From positions 1 to 50,413 of the forward strand of contig JAGAYZ010000033.1 of assembly GCA_017940245.1 (NCBI GenBank): 50,413 bases of DNA, given 5' to 3'. The notes beneath the pieces are model-generated. The model was not told where the DNA came from. It did not search any database and saw only the letters and a program-made list of their open reading frames with translations. How positions within the stretch are numbered: position 1 is the stretch's first letter; each line of letters starts with the position of its first letter. Made by a program: the position numbers and the translations under genes. Below, piece after piece: positions 6,970 to 39,953 of this stretch. This DNA is from Muribaculaceae bacterium (lineage in GTDB: Bacteria; Bacteroidota; Bacteroidia; Bacteroidales; Muribaculaceae).

Positions 6970-9407
6970 TAAACTCCGAGAATGATGTTGATAATTGCGT
7001 TCACGTCTTCTACATCGATTTTTCCATTGTTATCCATGTCGCAACTTGTGATTTGTGATGCGGTGGGAGTCTGTACCTTGAGGATGAAGTTGATGACCAG
7101 GTTCACGTCTTCTACATCCACTTTTCCGTCGCCGTTGGCATCACCTTTCTTTCCAGTAGAACCGCCGGTCATTTTGTAGCGGGCGGTGCTTCTAGCCCGC
7201 ACCAGTTCTCCTTGATTGTAGTAGTAGAAGATGACGAAGTAAGACTCGCCTGTGATGAGCTCATCGAAAGAGAACGTGAGTTTATCGGTTCCATTTCCTG
7301 CCAGTCGCAATGCCTGAGTTTTGGCCATCACGGCCGAGCCGCTATAACTCGTTCCATTCACCTTGGTCACGCGGCATATTTTGGCCACGATATCCTCATC
7401 GTAGTCCGAGGCCAGGTTGTTTGTAATCAGGTCCTCAACGATGAGTGTGTTGCCGGCCACACTTCTGCCGCTGACTGCATTGGTGGAGTTGGGCACCGTC
7501 AAGGTCATGGTCAGATTTGCCTCGGGCATTTCCTCGATGGTTACCGACTGAGTGGCGATGGGGCTGGTGCCGTCTTCGTTAAAGGTGACCGACAAAGTCT
7601 TGTTGCCGGTGGTGGAGGGCGTATAGTAGAACTTGAGATCTTCGGTTTCACCCGATTGAGACTGGGTGATGGCAACTGTGTTTTTGACTCCATCGACAAA
7701 CAAATAGGCAACATTGTTGACCGAATTTCCCCTGTTGGTGACATTGGCTACAATCTCGAGAGTTTTCCCCACGCGCCGGTTGCCGTTGATTGTGATGTCA
7801 TTCAAAGTATAGTTGGGCTTGATGTCGCTGCTAATTCCGTGTGCAGCTAGTGTGAGCCGATTACCGGCCACCTGCGCAATCACATAGTTGACGTCGCCGC
7901 TCTCACATATCTCCCAACTGTCGCCGCTGGCTAATCGGCTGATGGGCACAATGCGATAGGTGCCATCGGCAAGGCCTGCCCCCAACGAGCATGGGTATGC
8001 ACCTGTGCGACCATATCCATTTGGCAATTCGTTGAACTTGAACGTTGAGCTTGTCTCGTTTGAGATGATGGCCAGGCGCGTGTCGCCCTGATAGAGTCCC
8101 CATCCGGCAACGAAGTTTTGGGTCGCTCCTGTGTGATTAGAAAAACGGCCTTTGATGGAGATGCCGGTAAAGTTGGCTGAGGAATTTGCGCGCGTGTAGC
8201 TGGTAGCTGGCAACTCCAGAGCAGAGAATGTCATTGCGGTGGTGTTGGCGATGGAGCCTTTGGCAGGCTGAATTCCCGCAACGATGGCTTGGCCTAAAAT
8301 ATAACCTTCGTTACCTTGGGCACTCCCTGTGCCTTGCGAATTGGGACGCAGAGCCGAAAGTGCGAAGTAGCCATTGCTGGAACTACCCCAACCCCAGTTG
8401 AAATGAAACAGCCCGTTGTCATATCCGTCGCACACAAACGAGTGTCCGGCTTTATTCATTTTCTCTCCGCGATACACTACAGGACGATGCGCACGGAGTT
8501 CGGAATAGATGAGTTGCTCCCATGCGTCACGGCTGAAATTGTTGCGTGCGTAATATCGGCAAGAGGGTGCATAGTCAAAGTATTGCTGTAGTGCATCGGG
8601 AATGTTGCTGGTAGAAGCAGAGGATGTGCCATCCTTGAAGTCCATATTCAGAGCCTGGTCGCAATATAGCATAAGCGTGGCCACGGCATCGGCCGAAACG
8701 CCTGTAGAAGTGGGCAAGTAGTTGTCCTTCATATTGGCCCAGTCGAAGTTGACTACAGGTAGCTCGGGCATGGAAATGGACTGGCTTTTGGTCAGGTACT
8801 GCGGGATGGCTTTTGTAGGAGCCACAGGCCATTTATAATAGTACATCACCTGCGCCATGGCGGTGGCTACGCACCCCGTAGCGGCCCGTTCGCCATTGGC
8901 TGTGTTGGGCAGCAATGAGTTGTAAGGCTCGTTCTGATCCCAGTTGCATGTGAGCAACGGCGTTATTCTCCCTGCAGGTGCCTGGGCCGTGGCATCAAAA
9001 GAATCATCGTCTGGCTCGAGGCTTTCAATCTCTTGTGCATAGGCATCGAGCCAGAGCTGCATGGCCGGCGGAATTGCGTCGGCGTCGAAGTGACCGCTGT
9101 CGCTATAGGCCAGCACTGGAATGGCGCGGTCGTCACCGCTCACGATGACATATCCATCACCCGTCTGTGATGCATTAAAGACGTAGTAGGCTGCGGCGAC
9201 ACCTGGTGCGCGATGGGATCCACGTTGCTTTGTCACCATGAGATTACTTCCCATGTCGATGTGATGGCCAGAGATGAACGCTTGAGCCACTTGGAGTGCC
9301 TCGCTCTCGCTGAGTGTGCGTGCCTGGACATAAACCGACCCGCACAGGATCATTGCTAATGCTGTTGAGAGACTTTTAATTGCTTGACGAGATGATGGAT
9401 AAGTCAT
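6969..9407 (-). CDS. C10 (streptopain-like) cysteine protease with C-terminal dockerin
   Basis: Secreted cysteine protease of 812 residues. In order: an export signal (to about residue 29, VQA), an inhibitory pro-domain (about 30-140), the C10 catalytic domain (about 145-370), beta-sandwich accessory domains, then a two-lobe dockerin-like module. The catalytic Cys179 sits in ATGCVATAMAQ, His322 in AGHSFVCDGY, followed by NWGWGS. The dockerin lobes are DANGDGKVDVEDVN and DMDNNGKIDVEDVN, each with a complete EF-hand calcium loop. Relatives include streptococcal SpeB and Prevotella interpain. It lies 10 bp downstream of a second C10 gene and overlaps DUF5715 by one base, so the genes look like one operon. 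Confidence 0.93.
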   Translation of the reverse strand: MTYPSSRQAIKSLSTALAMILCGSVYVQARTLSESEALQVAQAFISGHHIDMGSNLMVTKQRGSHRAPGVAAAYYVFNASQTGDGYVIVSGDDRAIPVLAYSDSGHFDADAIPPAMQLWLDAYAQEIESLEPDDDSFDATAQAPAGRITPLLTCNWDQNEPYNSLLPNTANGERAATGCVATAMAQVMYYYKWPVAPTKAIPQYLTKSQSISMPELPVVNFDWANMKDNYLPTSTGVSADAVATLMLYCDQALNMDFKDGTSSASTSNIPDALQQYFDYAPSCRYYARNNFSRDAWEQLIYSELRAHRPVVYRGEKMNKAGHSFVCDGYDNGLFHFNWGWGSSSNGYFALSALRPNSQGTGSAQGNEGYILGQAIVAGIQPAKGSIANTTAMTFSALELPATSYTRANSSANFTGISIKGRFSNHTGATQNFVAGWGLYQGDTRLAIISNETSSTFKFNELPNGYGRTGAYPCSLGAGLADGTYRIVPISRLASGDSWEICESGDVNYVIAQVAGNRLTLAAHGISSDIKPNYTLNDITINGNRRVGKTLEIVANVTNRGNSVNNVAYLFVDGVKNTVAITQSQSGETEDLKFYYTPSTTGNKTLSVTFNEDGTSPIATQSVTIEEMPEANLTMTLTVPNSTNAVSGRSVAGNTLIVEDLITNNLASDYDEDIVAKICRVTKVNGTSYSGSAVMAKTQALRLAGNGTDKLTFSFDELITGESYFVIFYYYNQGELVRARSTARYKMTGGSTGKKGDANGDGKVDVEDVNLVINFILKVQTPTASQITSCDMDNNGKIDVEDVNAIINIILGV

Positions 9408-9417
9408 GAAAAAAAGA

Positions 9418-12186
9418 TTATTTGATTCCTAAAATGATGTTGATAATTTTGTTCACGTCTTCAACATCCAGTTTGTAATTGTAGTCCATGTCGCATCGAG
9501 AGATTTGTGATGCGGTGGGAGTCTGCACCTTGAGGATGAAGTTGATGAGCAGGTTCACGTCTTCCACATCCACCCTTCCGTCGCCGTTAGCATCGCCTTG
9601 AATATAGGTGGAACTGCCGCTCTTCATCGTGTAGGTAGCCGTCTTGGCAATTTGAGTTTTCACGCCGTTCTTGTAATAGGACACGATGCCATAGTAGGCT
9701 TGTCCAGAGGTGAGCCCTGTAACGTTGCCGGTGATGGTGACCGTTTTTCCGGCAGCTACCTGAGTGCTGATGTTGGATGTTTTGTACACTGAACTATAGC
9801 CGCTGCGATAGATGTCGAGAACGAAGCCGCTGGTGTAGGCAGCAGATCCCTTGTTGGTAGCCGAGAAACTGACTCCGAAGGTCGTGCCGTTGATGGTTGA
9901 TCCACTGGCATTTTGCACGCTTACAGAACCGAAAGTCATATCGACCGATGATGCGGCGGGCAGAGAGTAGGTGGAAGTGGTGGTAGCAAGGGTCTTGGTG
10001 CCGTTTTTGTAGTAATAAATCTTGGCATAATAGCTCTTGCCTGTTGCCAGTCCGGTAACGGTGGGGTTGATGGTAGCACTACCGCCTGCATTCACCGTGG
10101 TGCCTATCGTGGTGGTCTTGTAAACCGAAGACACTCCCGATTGATACACGTCCATGACGAAACCGCCCGAGTAGGCCGATGTTCCCTTGTTGGTAATGGT
10201 CTGCTTCACCGAGAATACATTGGTTGTGAGTTGACTGCCCGAAATGTTCTGCACTTGCGGTGTTCCGAAACTCAGATTCACGTTATCGTCGGCAGCCTTG
10301 ATGGTGACCGAGCCGGTGTATAGCGGTGAAGAGCCGTCGGAGTTGAGCGATAGATTGATGGAATAGACGCCGGCCGAGGTGGGCGTGAAGTGAAGTGTGA
10401 CCGTCTCGGCGTTATAGGCGGGAATGTCGAGCATGCCCATGCTGGATTGCACGTTGTTCACAAAGAGGTAAAGCATGTTGTAGTCGTTATATCCACCATT
10501 GGTGATGTGGGCATTGACGGCAACGTTGGAGTTGGGTGTGAGTGTACCGCTATAGGTGACGGTGTTCACGGTATAGGCCGGATTGGCGGCATTGCCCATT
10601 CCGGTGATGGTGAGCGTGAGGCTGTTGATGGTCACTTTATAATAGTTGCGGCTGGCGCCTTCACATTTTTGCCAAGCATCGTTAGAGCCGTGCTTACGGT
10701 AGATGGCGTGCAATTCGTAGGTGCCGTTGCTCAGCCCGCTGCCGAATGATAGCGAGTATTCTTTGCGGCTGATGTAATAGCTCGGCTTGATGTCGGTAGT
10801 ATAACTGTTGAAGACCACTTTCACCAGCTCCCCGTTTTGGTATAATCCCCATCCGAAGTCGGGAGACATCGTGTTGTTGGTCTCGTTGGAGAAAGTTCCG
10901 GTGATGTTGATGTTGGAAAAGTTTCCGCTCGATGAAGAGCGAGTCAGTGTGGAGGCTCCGTAGACGCGTGTGTCGGAAATGCTGAGCTGGTAACTGACCG
11001 TGTTGGTGGTGCTGGGCTTGAAGTTGATGATCATGCCCTGGTTATTGCCGTAACCGTCCGAGCCCACGATGCCACCTGTGCCTTGTTCCTCGGGATTGAG
11101 AATGTTGAGCGCGAAGAAACCGTCGCTGCCGCCTCGCCAGCCCCAATTGATGTGGAACATCCCCTTGCCGTCGAAGCCATCGCAAATAAATGCGTGTCCG
11201 CCCTTGAGTTTCTGTCCGTGGTAATAGACGGGGCGTCCGGCTTTAAGCTCGTTATACACCAGGGTTTCCCACTCGTTGCGGGTGTAGCTCGAGCGGGTGT
11301 AGTGGCGGCATGCGCCATAGCCGAAATAGTTGGCAAAAGCCGATGCGGCCACATAGGAGTTGGCACTGGATGTGGCGTTGCCGTTATTGTCGATTTGAAA
11401 ATCCATTTCCACCGATTGCGCGCAGAAATTCAGTAGCGTGGCCACGGCACTGCTTGTCTCGCTGCTGGAGTAGTAATTCTTCATGCTGCTCCACTGAAAT
11501 GTGACGGGGCTCAAGGCCGGGCGCGAAATACTTCTAGTCTTGGATGTGTAGGCCGGTATGGTCTGTGTGGCCTTAGCAGGCGACTTGAAGAAGTACATCA
11601 CTTGTGCCATGGCGGTGGCCACGCAGCCTGTTACGGCGCGAAGCGAAGAAGTGAGCATGGGCATATTGGCATTGAATGGTGAGCCTTGTGCCCATTGCGA
11701 TTTAATGAGGGGCGAGATAGCCGATCCTGTGATGTACTGCGGTGCGGCAGCATGATAAGGCTTGTTGATGCCCATTTTGTCGAGTTGCTCGATCTGCTCG
11801 GCATATTCATCTAGCCAACTCTGCATGTTTTCGGGAACATCGGTGGGGTCGAAGTAACCGCTGTCGCTGTATCCCAGCACGGGAATGACGCGGTCGTCAC
11901 CGCTCACAATCACATAGCCGTCGCCAGCAGTGCCTGCATTGTAGACATAGTAGGTGGCAGCTGTGGTCAAGCTGGGGGCACGCCTGGCTCCGCGCTGCAC
12001 GGGAGCCAGGTCGCCTTTGACGGCAATGTGTTCTCGGGCAAAAAACGATTGAGCCACTTGGCGGGCCTCACTCTCGCTGAGTGTGCGTGCCTGAGCCATG
12101 TTGAAACATGAGCACATGATGGCCAGCACGATAGCTGTTGCAGTCGTGCCAGTCAGAATATTAGGGATATAGCGGAATCTTTTCAT
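9418..12186 (-). CDS. C10 (streptopain-like) cysteine protease with C-terminal dockerin
   Basis: Paralogue of the next gene in the operon, 922 residues from the start chosen at 12186 (MKRFRYIPNIL), which puts the hydrophobic signal at the N-terminus; an in-frame ATG 42 nt upstream is less likely. A pro-domain, then the catalytic Cys in VTGCVATAMAQ, His in GGHAFICDGF and NWGWRGG. Beyond the protease are beta-sandwich domains, including two tandem repeats of about 110 residues that share FV.D.Y.SG.SSVYKT. The first dockerin lobe (DANGDGRVDVEDVN) is intact. The second (DMDYNYKLDVEDVN) has Tyr at the usual Gly position of the calcium loop and may bind calcium poorly. Presumed role: extracellular protein degradation. 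Confidence 0.92.
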   Translation of the reverse strand: MKRFRYIPNILTGTTATAIVLAIMCSCFNMAQARTLSESEARQVAQSFFAREHIAVKGDLAPVQRGARRAPSLTTAATYYVYNAGTAGDGYVIVSGDDRVIPVLGYSDSGYFDPTDVPENMQSWLDEYAEQIEQLDKMGINKPYHAAAPQYITGSAISPLIKSQWAQGSPFNANMPMLTSSLRAVTGCVATAMAQVMYFFKSPAKATQTIPAYTSKTRSISRPALSPVTFQWSSMKNYYSSSETSSAVATLLNFCAQSVEMDFQIDNNGNATSSANSYVAASAFANYFGYGACRHYTRSSYTRNEWETLVYNELKAGRPVYYHGQKLKGGHAFICDGFDGKGMFHINWGWRGGSDGFFALNILNPEEQGTGGIVGSDGYGNNQGMIINFKPSTTNTVSYQLSISDTRVYGASTLTRSSSSGNFSNINITGTFSNETNNTMSPDFGWGLYQNGELVKVVFNSYTTDIKPSYYISRKEYSLSFGSGLSNGTYELHAIYRKHGSNDAWQKCEGASRNYYKVTINSLTLTITGMGNAANPAYTVNTVTYSGTLTPNSNVAVNAHITNGGYNDYNMLYLFVNNVQSSMGMLDIPAYNAETVTLHFTPTSAGVYSINLSLNSDGSSPLYTGSVTIKAADDNVNLSFGTPQVQNISGSQLTTNVFSVKQTITNKGTSAYSGGFVMDVYQSGVSSVYKTTTIGTTVNAGGSATINPTVTGLATGKSYYAKIYYYKNGTKTLATTTSTYSLPAASSVDMTFGSVSVQNASGSTINGTTFGVSFSATNKGSAAYTSGFVLDIYRSGYSSVYKTSNISTQVAAGKTVTITGNVTGLTSGQAYYGIVSYYKNGVKTQIAKTATYTMKSGSSTYIQGDANGDGRVDVEDVNLLINFILKVQTPTASQISRCDMDYNYKLDVEDVNKIINIILGIK

Positions 12187-19068: not shown

Positions 19069-19971
19069 ATGAAAAAGAGAATGTTATTAGTGGCGGTGTG
19101 TGCTGCGATGTTTTTCCCTGTGTGGAGCGATGTGTATGGCGACGTGAACGGCGACGGCCGTGTTGACGTGGAAGATGTGAACGAAGTGGTGAACGTGATT
19201 CTGCGTCTGCCGCATGGCGGCCAGTCGGGCACGCAGACGTTTACTGTAAATGGTGTGAGCTTTACGATGGTAGGCGTGCAGGGCGGTACGTTCACGATGG
19301 GTGCGACGGAGGAGCAGGGCAGCGATGCCTACGACAGTGAGAAGCCTGCACATCAGGTGACCTTGTCGAGCTACCGTATCGGGCAGACCGAGGTCACGCA
19401 GGCGCTGTGGCAGGCTGTGATGGGGAGCAACCCGAGTTATTTTCAGTCATCCACAGATAGCGATTACGGCACGAACATGCAGCGTCCAGTGGAGAATGTG
19501 AGCTGGAACGGCTGCCAGGAGTTCATCACGAAGTTGAACCAGCTCACGGGCAAGCAGTTCCGCTTGCCGACAGAGGCCGAGTGGGAGTATGCGGCGCGTG
19601 GTGGTAACAAGAGCAAGGGCTATAAGTACGCTGGCAGCAACACCGTGGGCGATGTGGCGTGGTATAGGGACAATATACCATCGCAATCAGAAGGCACCAC
19701 AGGTTACGGCACTCAGCCGGTGGGCACCAAGGCTCCAAATGAGTTGGGCTTGTACGACATGAGCGGCAACGTGCTGGAGTGGTGCCAGGACTGCTACGGT
19801 AGTTACAGCAGCGACGCTCAGACCAACCCGACGGGTCCCTCTAGTGGCTCGTATCGTGTGCGCCGTGGTGGCGACTGGAGCAGCAGCGCGCGGCGCTGCC
19901 GCGTGTCGAACCGCGGCTACAGCACGCCGGCGGGCCGCGGCAGCGACATGGGCTTCCGACTTGCCCTATAG
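19069..19971 (+). CDS. secreted dockerin / FGE-sulfatase-fold protein with DGR-like variable C-terminus
   Basis: A 300-residue exported protein: signal peptide to about residue 20, one dockerin-like lobe DVNGDGRVDVEDVN (about 25-38), then an FGE-sulfatase (SUMF1-like, C-type-lectin-fold) domain. That domain shows GGTFTMGA, IGQTEVTQALWQAVMG, FRLPTEAEWEYAARGG and LGLYDMSGNVLEWC. The last 36 residues (265-300) follow the pattern of diversity-generating retroelement variable regions: an invariant frame (RGG.W...AR.CRVSNR...TPA.R...MGFR) with 13 interposed codons that are all NNC, as adenine mutagenesis of AAC codons produces. A binding rather than sulfatase-maturing role is therefore likely. No template repeat or reverse transcriptase is in the window. 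Confidence 0.85.
   Translation: MKKRMLLVAVCAAMFFPVWSDVYGDVNGDGRVDVEDVNEVVNVILRLPHGGQSGTQTFTVNGVSFTMVGVQGGTFTMGATEEQGSDAYDSEKPAHQVTLSSYRIGQTEVTQALWQAVMGSNPSYFQSSTDSDYGTNMQRPVENVSWNGCQEFITKLNQLTGKQFRLPTEAEWEYAARGGNKSKGYKYAGSNTVGDVAWYRDNIPSQSEGTTGYGTQPVGTKAPNELGLYDMSGNVLEWCQDCYGSYSSDAQTNPTGPSSGSYRVRRGGDWSSSARRCRVSNRGYSTPAGRGSDMGFRLAL
19855..19971 (+). other. candidate DGR variable region
   Basis: Codons for R265, D269, S271-S273, R276, G283, Y284, S285, G289, G291, S292 and D293 are all NNC (AGC, CGC, GGC, TAC, GAC) and occupy the positions that read AAC in template repeats of Bacteroidetes FGE-type DGR targets. Intervening codons vary in third base, which fits unmutated template positions. This is inference from pattern; the template itself is not present here. 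Confidence 0.55.
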
Positions 19972-38966: not shown

Positions 38967-39953
38967 ATGAAATATATGATGAAAATGATGAAATGGAGAT
39001 GGATGGCTCTGGTGGCGGTGTTGCTGCTGGGAGTGCAAGCGCGAGCCGTGGAGCATGACCTAAATGGTGATTCCAATGTGGACTCGCTAGACTATCGACT
39101 GCTGGCGATGCGAATCATCGACAAAACAGCAGACTACGATGTCCGTTACGACATTGATGGCAACGGCACCATAGATGCAGTGGATGCCAACTTGTTGATG
39201 AATGAAATGAAACGTGTGAAAGAATTTAATGTGAATGGCATCAAATTCCGCATGGTGCTGGTGGAGGCCGGGACTTTTACGATGGGTGCAACGGCCGAGC
39301 AAGGCGGCGAAGTGACCGGTTATGAAAAGCCGGCTCATAAAGTGACGCTTACTAAAGATTACAGAATTGGAGAAACCGAGGTGACCCAAGAACTGTTTGT
39401 AGCGGTGATGGATACCAACTACAGCCGTTATAATGATGACTTGAAACACCCTGTTGAGTGTGTTACATGGAATGACTGTAAGACATTTATTACCAAACTG
39501 AATGAACTGACCGGAGCAAAATTCCGTTTACCGACAGAAGCCGAATGGGAGTTTGCTGCCCGTGGAGGACGCCGTGGTACCGGCTATCATTATGTGGCTA
39601 CAGATTCAGCGACCTATGGTTATAAATATGCTGGAAGTGATAATATCGACGAAGTGGCATGGTACTGGAATACCAGTGACATTGAAACTCATGTGGTGGG
39701 CAAATTGAAACCGAATGAGTTGGGACTCTACGATATGAGCGGCAACGTGTGGGAGTGGTGCGAAGACTGGTTTGGCAGCTATACCAGCGCTGCGGCAACC
39801 GACCCCAAGGGTCCATCGACGGGTGTTGGACGTGTGATCAGAGGCGGCTCGTTCAGAGAAGAAGGCACGATATGCCGCATGTCTTACAGAAGCGGGTATC
39901 AGCCGGGCAGTAACAACCTGGGTATTGGTTTCCGCCTGGCGATGGAGCCATAA
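38967..39953 (+). CDS. secreted dockerin / FGE-sulfatase-fold protein
   Basis: A 328-residue exported protein. ATG 38967 (MKYMMKMMKWRW) gives a signal peptide; the longer frame opens with TTG. Two EF-hand lobes at the N-terminus (DLNGDSNVDSLDYR and DIDGNGTIDAVDAN) form a two-lobe dockerin-like module. The FGE/SUMF1 domain has EAGTFTMGA, IGETEVTQELF, FRLPTEAEWEFAARGG and LYDMSGNVWEWCEDW, ending RGGSF...GIGFRLAMEP. The C-terminus lacks the run of NNC codons seen in the paralogue at 19069, so it looks like a non-diversified relative. Sulfatase maturation is unlikely for a dockerin-bearing exported protein; binding is more probable. Confidence 0.85.
   Translation: MKYMMKMMKWRWMALVAVLLLGVQARAVEHDLNGDSNVDSLDYRLLAMRIIDKTADYDVRYDIDGNGTIDAVDANLLMNEMKRVKEFNVNGIKFRMVLVEAGTFTMGATAEQGGEVTGYEKPAHKVTLTKDYRIGETEVTQELFVAVMDTNYSRYNDDLKHPVECVTWNDCKTFITKLNELTGAKFRLPTEAEWEFAARGGRRGTGYHYVATDSATYGYKYAGSDNIDEVAWYWNTSDIETHVVGKLKPNELGLYDMSGNVWEWCEDWFGSYTSAAATDPKGPSTGVGRVIRGGSFREEGTICRMSYRSGYQPGSNNLGIGFRLAMEP

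Follow-up and report, generated by a model that had tools for sequence, protein, structure and literature searches.

The stretch of DNA analysed here, 50,413 nucleotides from a Muribaculaceae bacterium (hereafter, the window), carries on its forward strand a gene of 300 codons (19069-19971) for a probably secreted protein with a formylglycine-generating enzyme (FGE) fold of the C-type-lectin type, referred to below as the target gene. The protein begins with a hydrophobic stretch, by eye a putative signal peptide (19069-19128), which is followed by a single dockerin type I repeat (19135-19236; positions 1-34 of the 57 in PF00404, E = 7.7e-5 in a six-frame search) and by an FGE-sulfatase domain (PF03781, 19264-19965; 183 bits, E = 8.6e-54). 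Codons 265-294 (19861-19950) form a variable repeat (VR) of the kind rewritten by diversity-generating retroelements (DGRs), and the remaining codons with the stop codon (GFRLAL*, 19951-19971) make up the 3' end of the repeat, where a homing site would likely be placed; all these features lie on the same strand. The window contains another FGE gene that matches dockerin (39054-39941); its C-terminus is without the DGR signature.

The first-pass annotation of this DNA had proposed an FGE-fold protein with an N-terminal dockerin. The fold is confirmed by the PF03781 match and by the top solved relative in sequence, TvpA, the DGR variable protein of Treponema denticola (2Y3C; E = 1.8e-44); the TvpA alignment runs through the VR to the last residues of the target protein, placing the VR at the C-terminus of a C-type-lectin/FGE fold. 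The dockerin claim stands in part. A PF00404 match is located at the N-terminus, but only one of the two calcium-binding repeats of a type I dockerin is present, i.e., about half a dockerin, scoring 24.7 bits in the six-frame search (above the cut-off of 22.9) and 22.1 bits, slightly under it, in hmmscan (Pfam positions 1-33 of 57). Catalytic FGEs have two catalytic cysteines just downstream of an RGGS motif. In an alignment with 2AFT, the second of these corresponds to Cys277 of the target protein and the first to a serine at variable codon 272, so that the catalytic pair is incomplete in this alignment, in which 2AFT itself shows serine at the first-cysteine position and a gap lies close by. 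The named records nearest to the target protein belong to Prevotellaceae and other Bacteroidales, several of them from the rumen, which points to a gut member of the Bacteroidales as host.

The region 19855-19971, which corresponds to codons 263-300 and the stop codon, had been described as a DGR-type variable C-terminus with NNC codons set in an invariant frame. The frame RGG.W...AR.CRVSNR...TPA.R...MGFR is present, and all 13 codons at which the template repeat (TR) of G083, a genome of the same genus, has AAC are NNC in the target gene (265, 271-273, 276, 281, 283-285, 289 and 291-293). With NNC accounting for 31% of target codons 1-262, the chance of 13 out of 13 is about 3e-7, a post-hoc figure. 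The nearest paralogue in the same genome is located on contig C54, and the two genes were aligned codon by codon. Within the 32 codons 263-294 they show 11, 10 and 1 differences at codon positions 1, 2 and 3, respectively, as against 22, 13 and 47 in the 254 codons compared from the body (codons 1-262; Fisher P = 4.9e-6 for positions 1 and 2 against 3, VR versus body). Counted alone, third-position differences are also scarcer in the VR (P = 0.016), where the sole one is ATG/ATA (G/A) at codon 294. The differing codons are 265, 269, 271-273, 275, 276, 281, 284, 285, 288, 289 and 291-294; codon 283 is identical in both genes, yet AAC in the TRs of the relatives. With a relative's TR standing in as the reference, 19 of the 22 VR differences between target and C54 fall on template adenines, mostly in AAC codons, whether the TR is that of G083 (30 adenines in 90 positions, P = 3.6e-9) or of G017 (31 adenines, P = 8.9e-9), and the other three (codons 269, 288 and 294) are each A versus G. 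This result, together with the single third-position change, bears out the description of a DGR-type variable region. The clean VR stretch ends at codon 294, since four of the six later codons differ from C54, two of them silently.

Direct comparison with the G083 TR gave 21 of 30 adenines and 12 of 69 other bases changed in the target VR (P = 7e-7), 15 of 30 and 14 of 69 in the C54 VR, and 17 of 30 and 18 of 69 in the VR on contig C38. The adenine enrichment of these VRs thus appears to sit on a non-adenine background, as drift between species would give. The assembly holds 12 FGE matches, two of them inside one open reading frame; seven, namely the genes from fetched loci with a C-terminus fitting a pattern, were compared in pairs. 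Target/C54 is the only one of the 21 pairs with a clear DGR signature, its third-position change rate being 0.03 in the VR versus 0.27 in the body next to it. Three pairs that include the gene on contig C10 have a mildly lower third-position change in the VR (0.37-0.40 versus 0.52-0.56 in the body), and in the remaining pairs it is level with or above that of the body.

A search of the genome for a TR, a DGR reverse transcriptase (RT) and Avd, proposed in the first-pass annotation, gave a divided result in the available assembly (G000; 104 contigs, 80.5% complete): a bAvd-RT fusion is present on contig C64, but an FGE-type TR and a cassette-type RT were not found. The N-masked target-VR pattern, which is too strict at template-adenine sites outside NNC codons, returned only the VR itself. 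BLAST of the target VR (E up to 10) gave matches over most of the VR only on C13, C54 and C38; eight further matches span 14 to about 42 bases each. The AAC pattern for an FGE-type TR had no match in this genome. The four RT matches of the assembly are group II intron-like, retron-like, UG27 and the bAvd-RT fusion, which lies in an apparent prophage; none is close to the RT of the cassettes described below, and the G083 accessory protein had no match in the assembly in a search run without a positive control. Because the assembly is only 80.5% complete, the missing TR and RT cannot refute the DGR reading here. The same outcome agrees with the earlier suggestion that this is possibly a remote target, and we regard the gene as a remote or orphaned DGR target, with the chances that the cassette of its genome is unassembled or lost being about even.

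The DGR on C64 (L141:17336-19342) is prophage-like and lies near the contig end, with the bAvd-RT fusion adjoining an Lcl_C-type target; an A-tolerant scan of 19.5 kb around the RT gave no TR of its own. The RTs on C5 (L003) and C83 (L002) match PADLOC models for UG27 and retron-like single-gene types. In viral contigs, the exact VR and TR patterns had no match, and a search limited to close relatives gave no relative of the cassette RT; among phages and plasmids this RT has only relatives of less than 60% identity.

BLAST of the target VR, with no more than 8 candidates scored per genome, detected similar DNA in at least 24 of 101 genomes of the genus, the own genome included, and within this group an intact TR and RT were found in two (G083 and G017) and a truncated TR in one (G096, where it is cut short adjoining an FGE gene). 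On contig C23 of G083, a target, an HRDC-domain gene, an RT with DGR motifs (VPIGNLTSQYFANHYL and YMDD), a TR that begins where the RT gene ends, and a second target are found within 5 kb. Compared to this TR, each of the two adjacent VRs is changed at 16 of the 30 adenines and at none of the 69 other bases, and the TR and VRs are identical through the stop codon. In G017, the order is one adjacent target, HRDC-domain gene, RT (53% identical to that of G083) and TR, with 17 of 31 adenines and 0 of 68 other bases changed in the adjacent VR. Both genomes therefore contain complete cassettes, with a DGR RT and an accessory gene next to the TR, and their three cassette-adjacent VRs differ from the TRs at adenines only (0 of 68-69 other bases). 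A remote kinase-FGE gene on another contig of G017 has 14 of 31 adenines and 3 of 68 other bases changed relative to the G017 TR. Across the family, the TR search was positive in 3 of 397 genomes, the third being G240 from another genus, in which the RT frame is interrupted. Further TR-pattern matches in G017 (contig C118), G067, G021, G078 and G040 were rejected as TRs, as they proved to be VRs.

Several other loci were noted in the genus. Weak RT matches were motif-scanned at 14 loci; among the 10 with a motif read-out, 4 have an IGLRSSQ motif. An RT type with this motif (L154, L156, L158) occurs in several genomes, and L154 and L156-L159, which adjoin open reading frames ending in RLAFRG, are perhaps phage DGRs. 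Loci L160, L162, L163 and L167 look group II-like, L170 is without such a motif, and L164 (G095:C14) encodes an RT of about 500 amino acids with an IGNITSQ motif. No FGE frame was found beside the six weak RT loci whose neighbours were listed. In G050, which is 98% complete and gave no TR, several FGE genes with differing VRs stand in an array (L138; G050:C9:65500-85400). Fusions of kinases to FGE domains with VR-like C-termini occur in G017, G096 and G240 (L178:9910-11544; L140:1906-3747 and 9006-10667; L190; L199), the kinase being assigned by Pfam for L178 and by motif or look for L140, L190 and L199; these fusions resemble cyanobacterial kinase-CLec targets.

The comparison between strains that had been suggested as a check on the variable codons was run on a related gene. 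Two further species, G018 and G094, harbor orthologous FGE genes with one dockerin repeat each (by motif), which differ in the VR at 16, 14 and 0 of 30 codons at positions 1, 2 and 3, and in the body at 10, 8 and 33 of 264 codons (VR versus body, P = 5e-10). The VR changes, 30 at first and second positions and none at third positions, are those predicted. In the G072/G088 pair, the members of which have dockerin repeats, the corresponding figures are 12, 8 and 1 in the VR and 47, 38 and 79 of 246 codons in the body; in a tandem gene pair of G065, also with dockerin repeats, they are 10, 12 and 2, and 33, 26 and 61 of 280 codons. The near-pair search started from 24 genes with a pattern-fitting C-terminus in the fetched loci, of which 3 pairs passed.

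Dockerin repeats recur in this protein family in the genus. Among 37 selected FGE proteins (from 42 listed genes, five short or cut ones dropped and six N-terminally cut ones kept), 15 have dockerin matches, 4 kinase matches and 4 Sel1 matches. The TR search in G018 (93% complete) and G094 (91% complete) gave nothing, and no close RT was found in either; one RT match in G018 looks group II-like, and one in G094 has 25% identity. VRs of relatives were compared to their local TRs using 30 fetched loci of 69 matches, from which 19 distinct VRs fitted the pattern. The dockerin-FGE genes among them (dockerin by motif; five in G017, two in G083) include no clean copy of the local TR, with 17-33 non-adenine changes of 68-69, and three of those in G017 are adenine-enriched versus the local TR at p < 0.01. 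So far, no dockerin-FGE target is tied to a TR of its own genome. On the docking side, scoring 150 of the 232 candidates in the own assembly gave at least 141 matches to dockerin, and one cohesin match was found (26.6 bits; cut-off 24.1). The cohesin match (L185; G000:C23:17705-18094) lies within a protein that by eye has leucine-rich-looking repeats and a dockerin-like stretch.

Taken together, we consider it very probable that the target gene encodes a variable protein of a DGR, the 3' end of which was rewritten. In the proposed mechanism, a DGR RT would have copied a TR of roughly 120 bases, misreading its adenines at random; this TR is predicted to code for N-RGG-(N/S)-W-NNN-ARNCRVSNRNNN-TP-.-NRNNN or similar. 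The cDNA would then have replaced the 3' ends of both paralogues, target and C54, with no change to the rest of either gene. The C-type-lectin-like FGE fold would keep its frame, and about 15 residues that presumably share one surface would change. The own genome would accordingly have, or have had, an FGE-type cassette that is unassembled or lost. DGR targets of the C-type-lectin/FGE fold bind ligands, as established for Mtd. The target protein is most likely a secreted, changeable binding protein with an N-terminal dockerin repeat, its VR being comparable to the variable region of an antibody in that it bears the marks of random rewriting. Attachment would be via the dockerin repeat, by which the protein could dock onto a partner with a cohesin or join a surface complex.

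That the VR was written by a past DGR whose cassette has since been lost, leaving a fixed binding protein, is a sub-case of the preferred reading with overlapping odds, and we give it somewhat less than an even chance. It would fit with the own assembly having yielded no FGE-type TR and no cassette-type RT, with the failure to find a TR in near-complete relatives with VR-FGE genes (e.g., G050 at 98%), with the truncated TR retained beside an FGE gene in G096, and with the description of T. denticola isolates that have targets without the core DGR (PMC4891356). Against it, the own assembly is 80% complete, and rewriting of the VR looks younger than the target/C54 duplication because a single third-position difference occurs in codons 263-294 versus 47 in the 254 codons of the bodies.

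Two explanations dispense with an FGE-type cassette altogether. Ordinary FGE paralogues could be under strong diversifying selection and kept alike by gene conversion, with no retroelement involved; the FGE families are indeed large (12 matches in the own assembly, 29 in G083 and 25 in G017), and most FGE pairs of the own genome are without a DGR signature. Such selection does not account for the placing of 19 of the 22 changes on TR adenines of another species with one third-position change, or for the 30:0 ratio of VR changes at positions 1 and 2 versus 3 in G018/G094, and we regard it as highly improbable. Alternatively, the resident prophage-type DGR on C64 may rewrite FGE genes in trans, as its bAvd-RT fusion is the sole RT of the four in the assembly to match DGR parts (bAvd, the Avd of DGRs). 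This RT adjoins an Lcl_C-type target rather than an FGE gene, and an FGE-type TR was not found in the assembly, which leaves its action on the target gene highly improbable.

Rewriting by an FGE-type DGR, as preferred here, may be part of a wider arrangement. It is conceivable, though in our judgement rather unlikely, that DGR hypermutation and dockerin docking are linked in a lineage of Bacteroidales, with a dispersed family of FGE proteins, their faces changeable, plugging by half a dockerin into a cohesin-bearing surface scaffold and being served in trans by a rare, perhaps mobile cassette. If true, modular docking would join phage tails, lipoproteins, pili and kinases among the known modes of presenting DGR diversity. 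The distribution in the genus is itself a puzzle, as an intact FGE-type TR and RT accompany VR-like DNA in only 2 of the at least 24 assemblies, out of 101, that have such DNA.

The first-pass annotation knew of no description of DGR targets joined to dockerins, and we likewise found no describing paper: in the open-licence literature, which gives weak evidence of novelty, a search for DGR with dockerin returned one fungal-microbiome paper by title, and none with cohesin, and a search for DGR with formylglycine and Prevotella returned none. The word dockerin does not occur in the main text of either PMC8144416 or PMC6642488. The DGR target itself is of a known kind, the TvpA type of T. denticola, whereas the dockerin coupling is without a describing paper among those found. 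FGE-sulfatase has been listed among the DGR targets of the human microbiome (PMC4159848), and diversified genes have been reported to coexist with stable paralogues (PMC3521204).

The closest known system is the T. denticola DGR with TvpA (PDB 2Y3C; PMC4891356), which shares with the system described here FGE-fold targets, an HRDC-domain accessory gene that overlaps the RT, and remote targets, and for which strains with targets and without the core cassette are described. Its accessory gene lies between TR and RT (PMC4891356), in contrast to the order target, HRDC-domain gene, RT, TR in G083 and G017. Lipoprotein signals are reported for 62% of the T. denticola targets (PMC4891356), whereas in the target protein a plain signal-like stretch precedes a dockerin repeat; unlike the T. 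denticola DGR, this protein comes from an assembly in which no cassette was found. In cyanobacterial DGRs, too, VRs of the CLec fold are scattered at a great distance from the cassette, frequently in fusions with Ser/Thr kinases (PMC7517822); these remote targets resemble the kinase-FGE gene of G017, but belong to another phylum, and the target protein has a dockerin repeat in place of the kinase. Bacteroides DGRs vary pilin tips (Macadangdang et al., 2024, via PMC12632263), and thus likewise act on surface proteins of Bacteroidales, yet on proteins that are borne by pili rather than by a dockerin.
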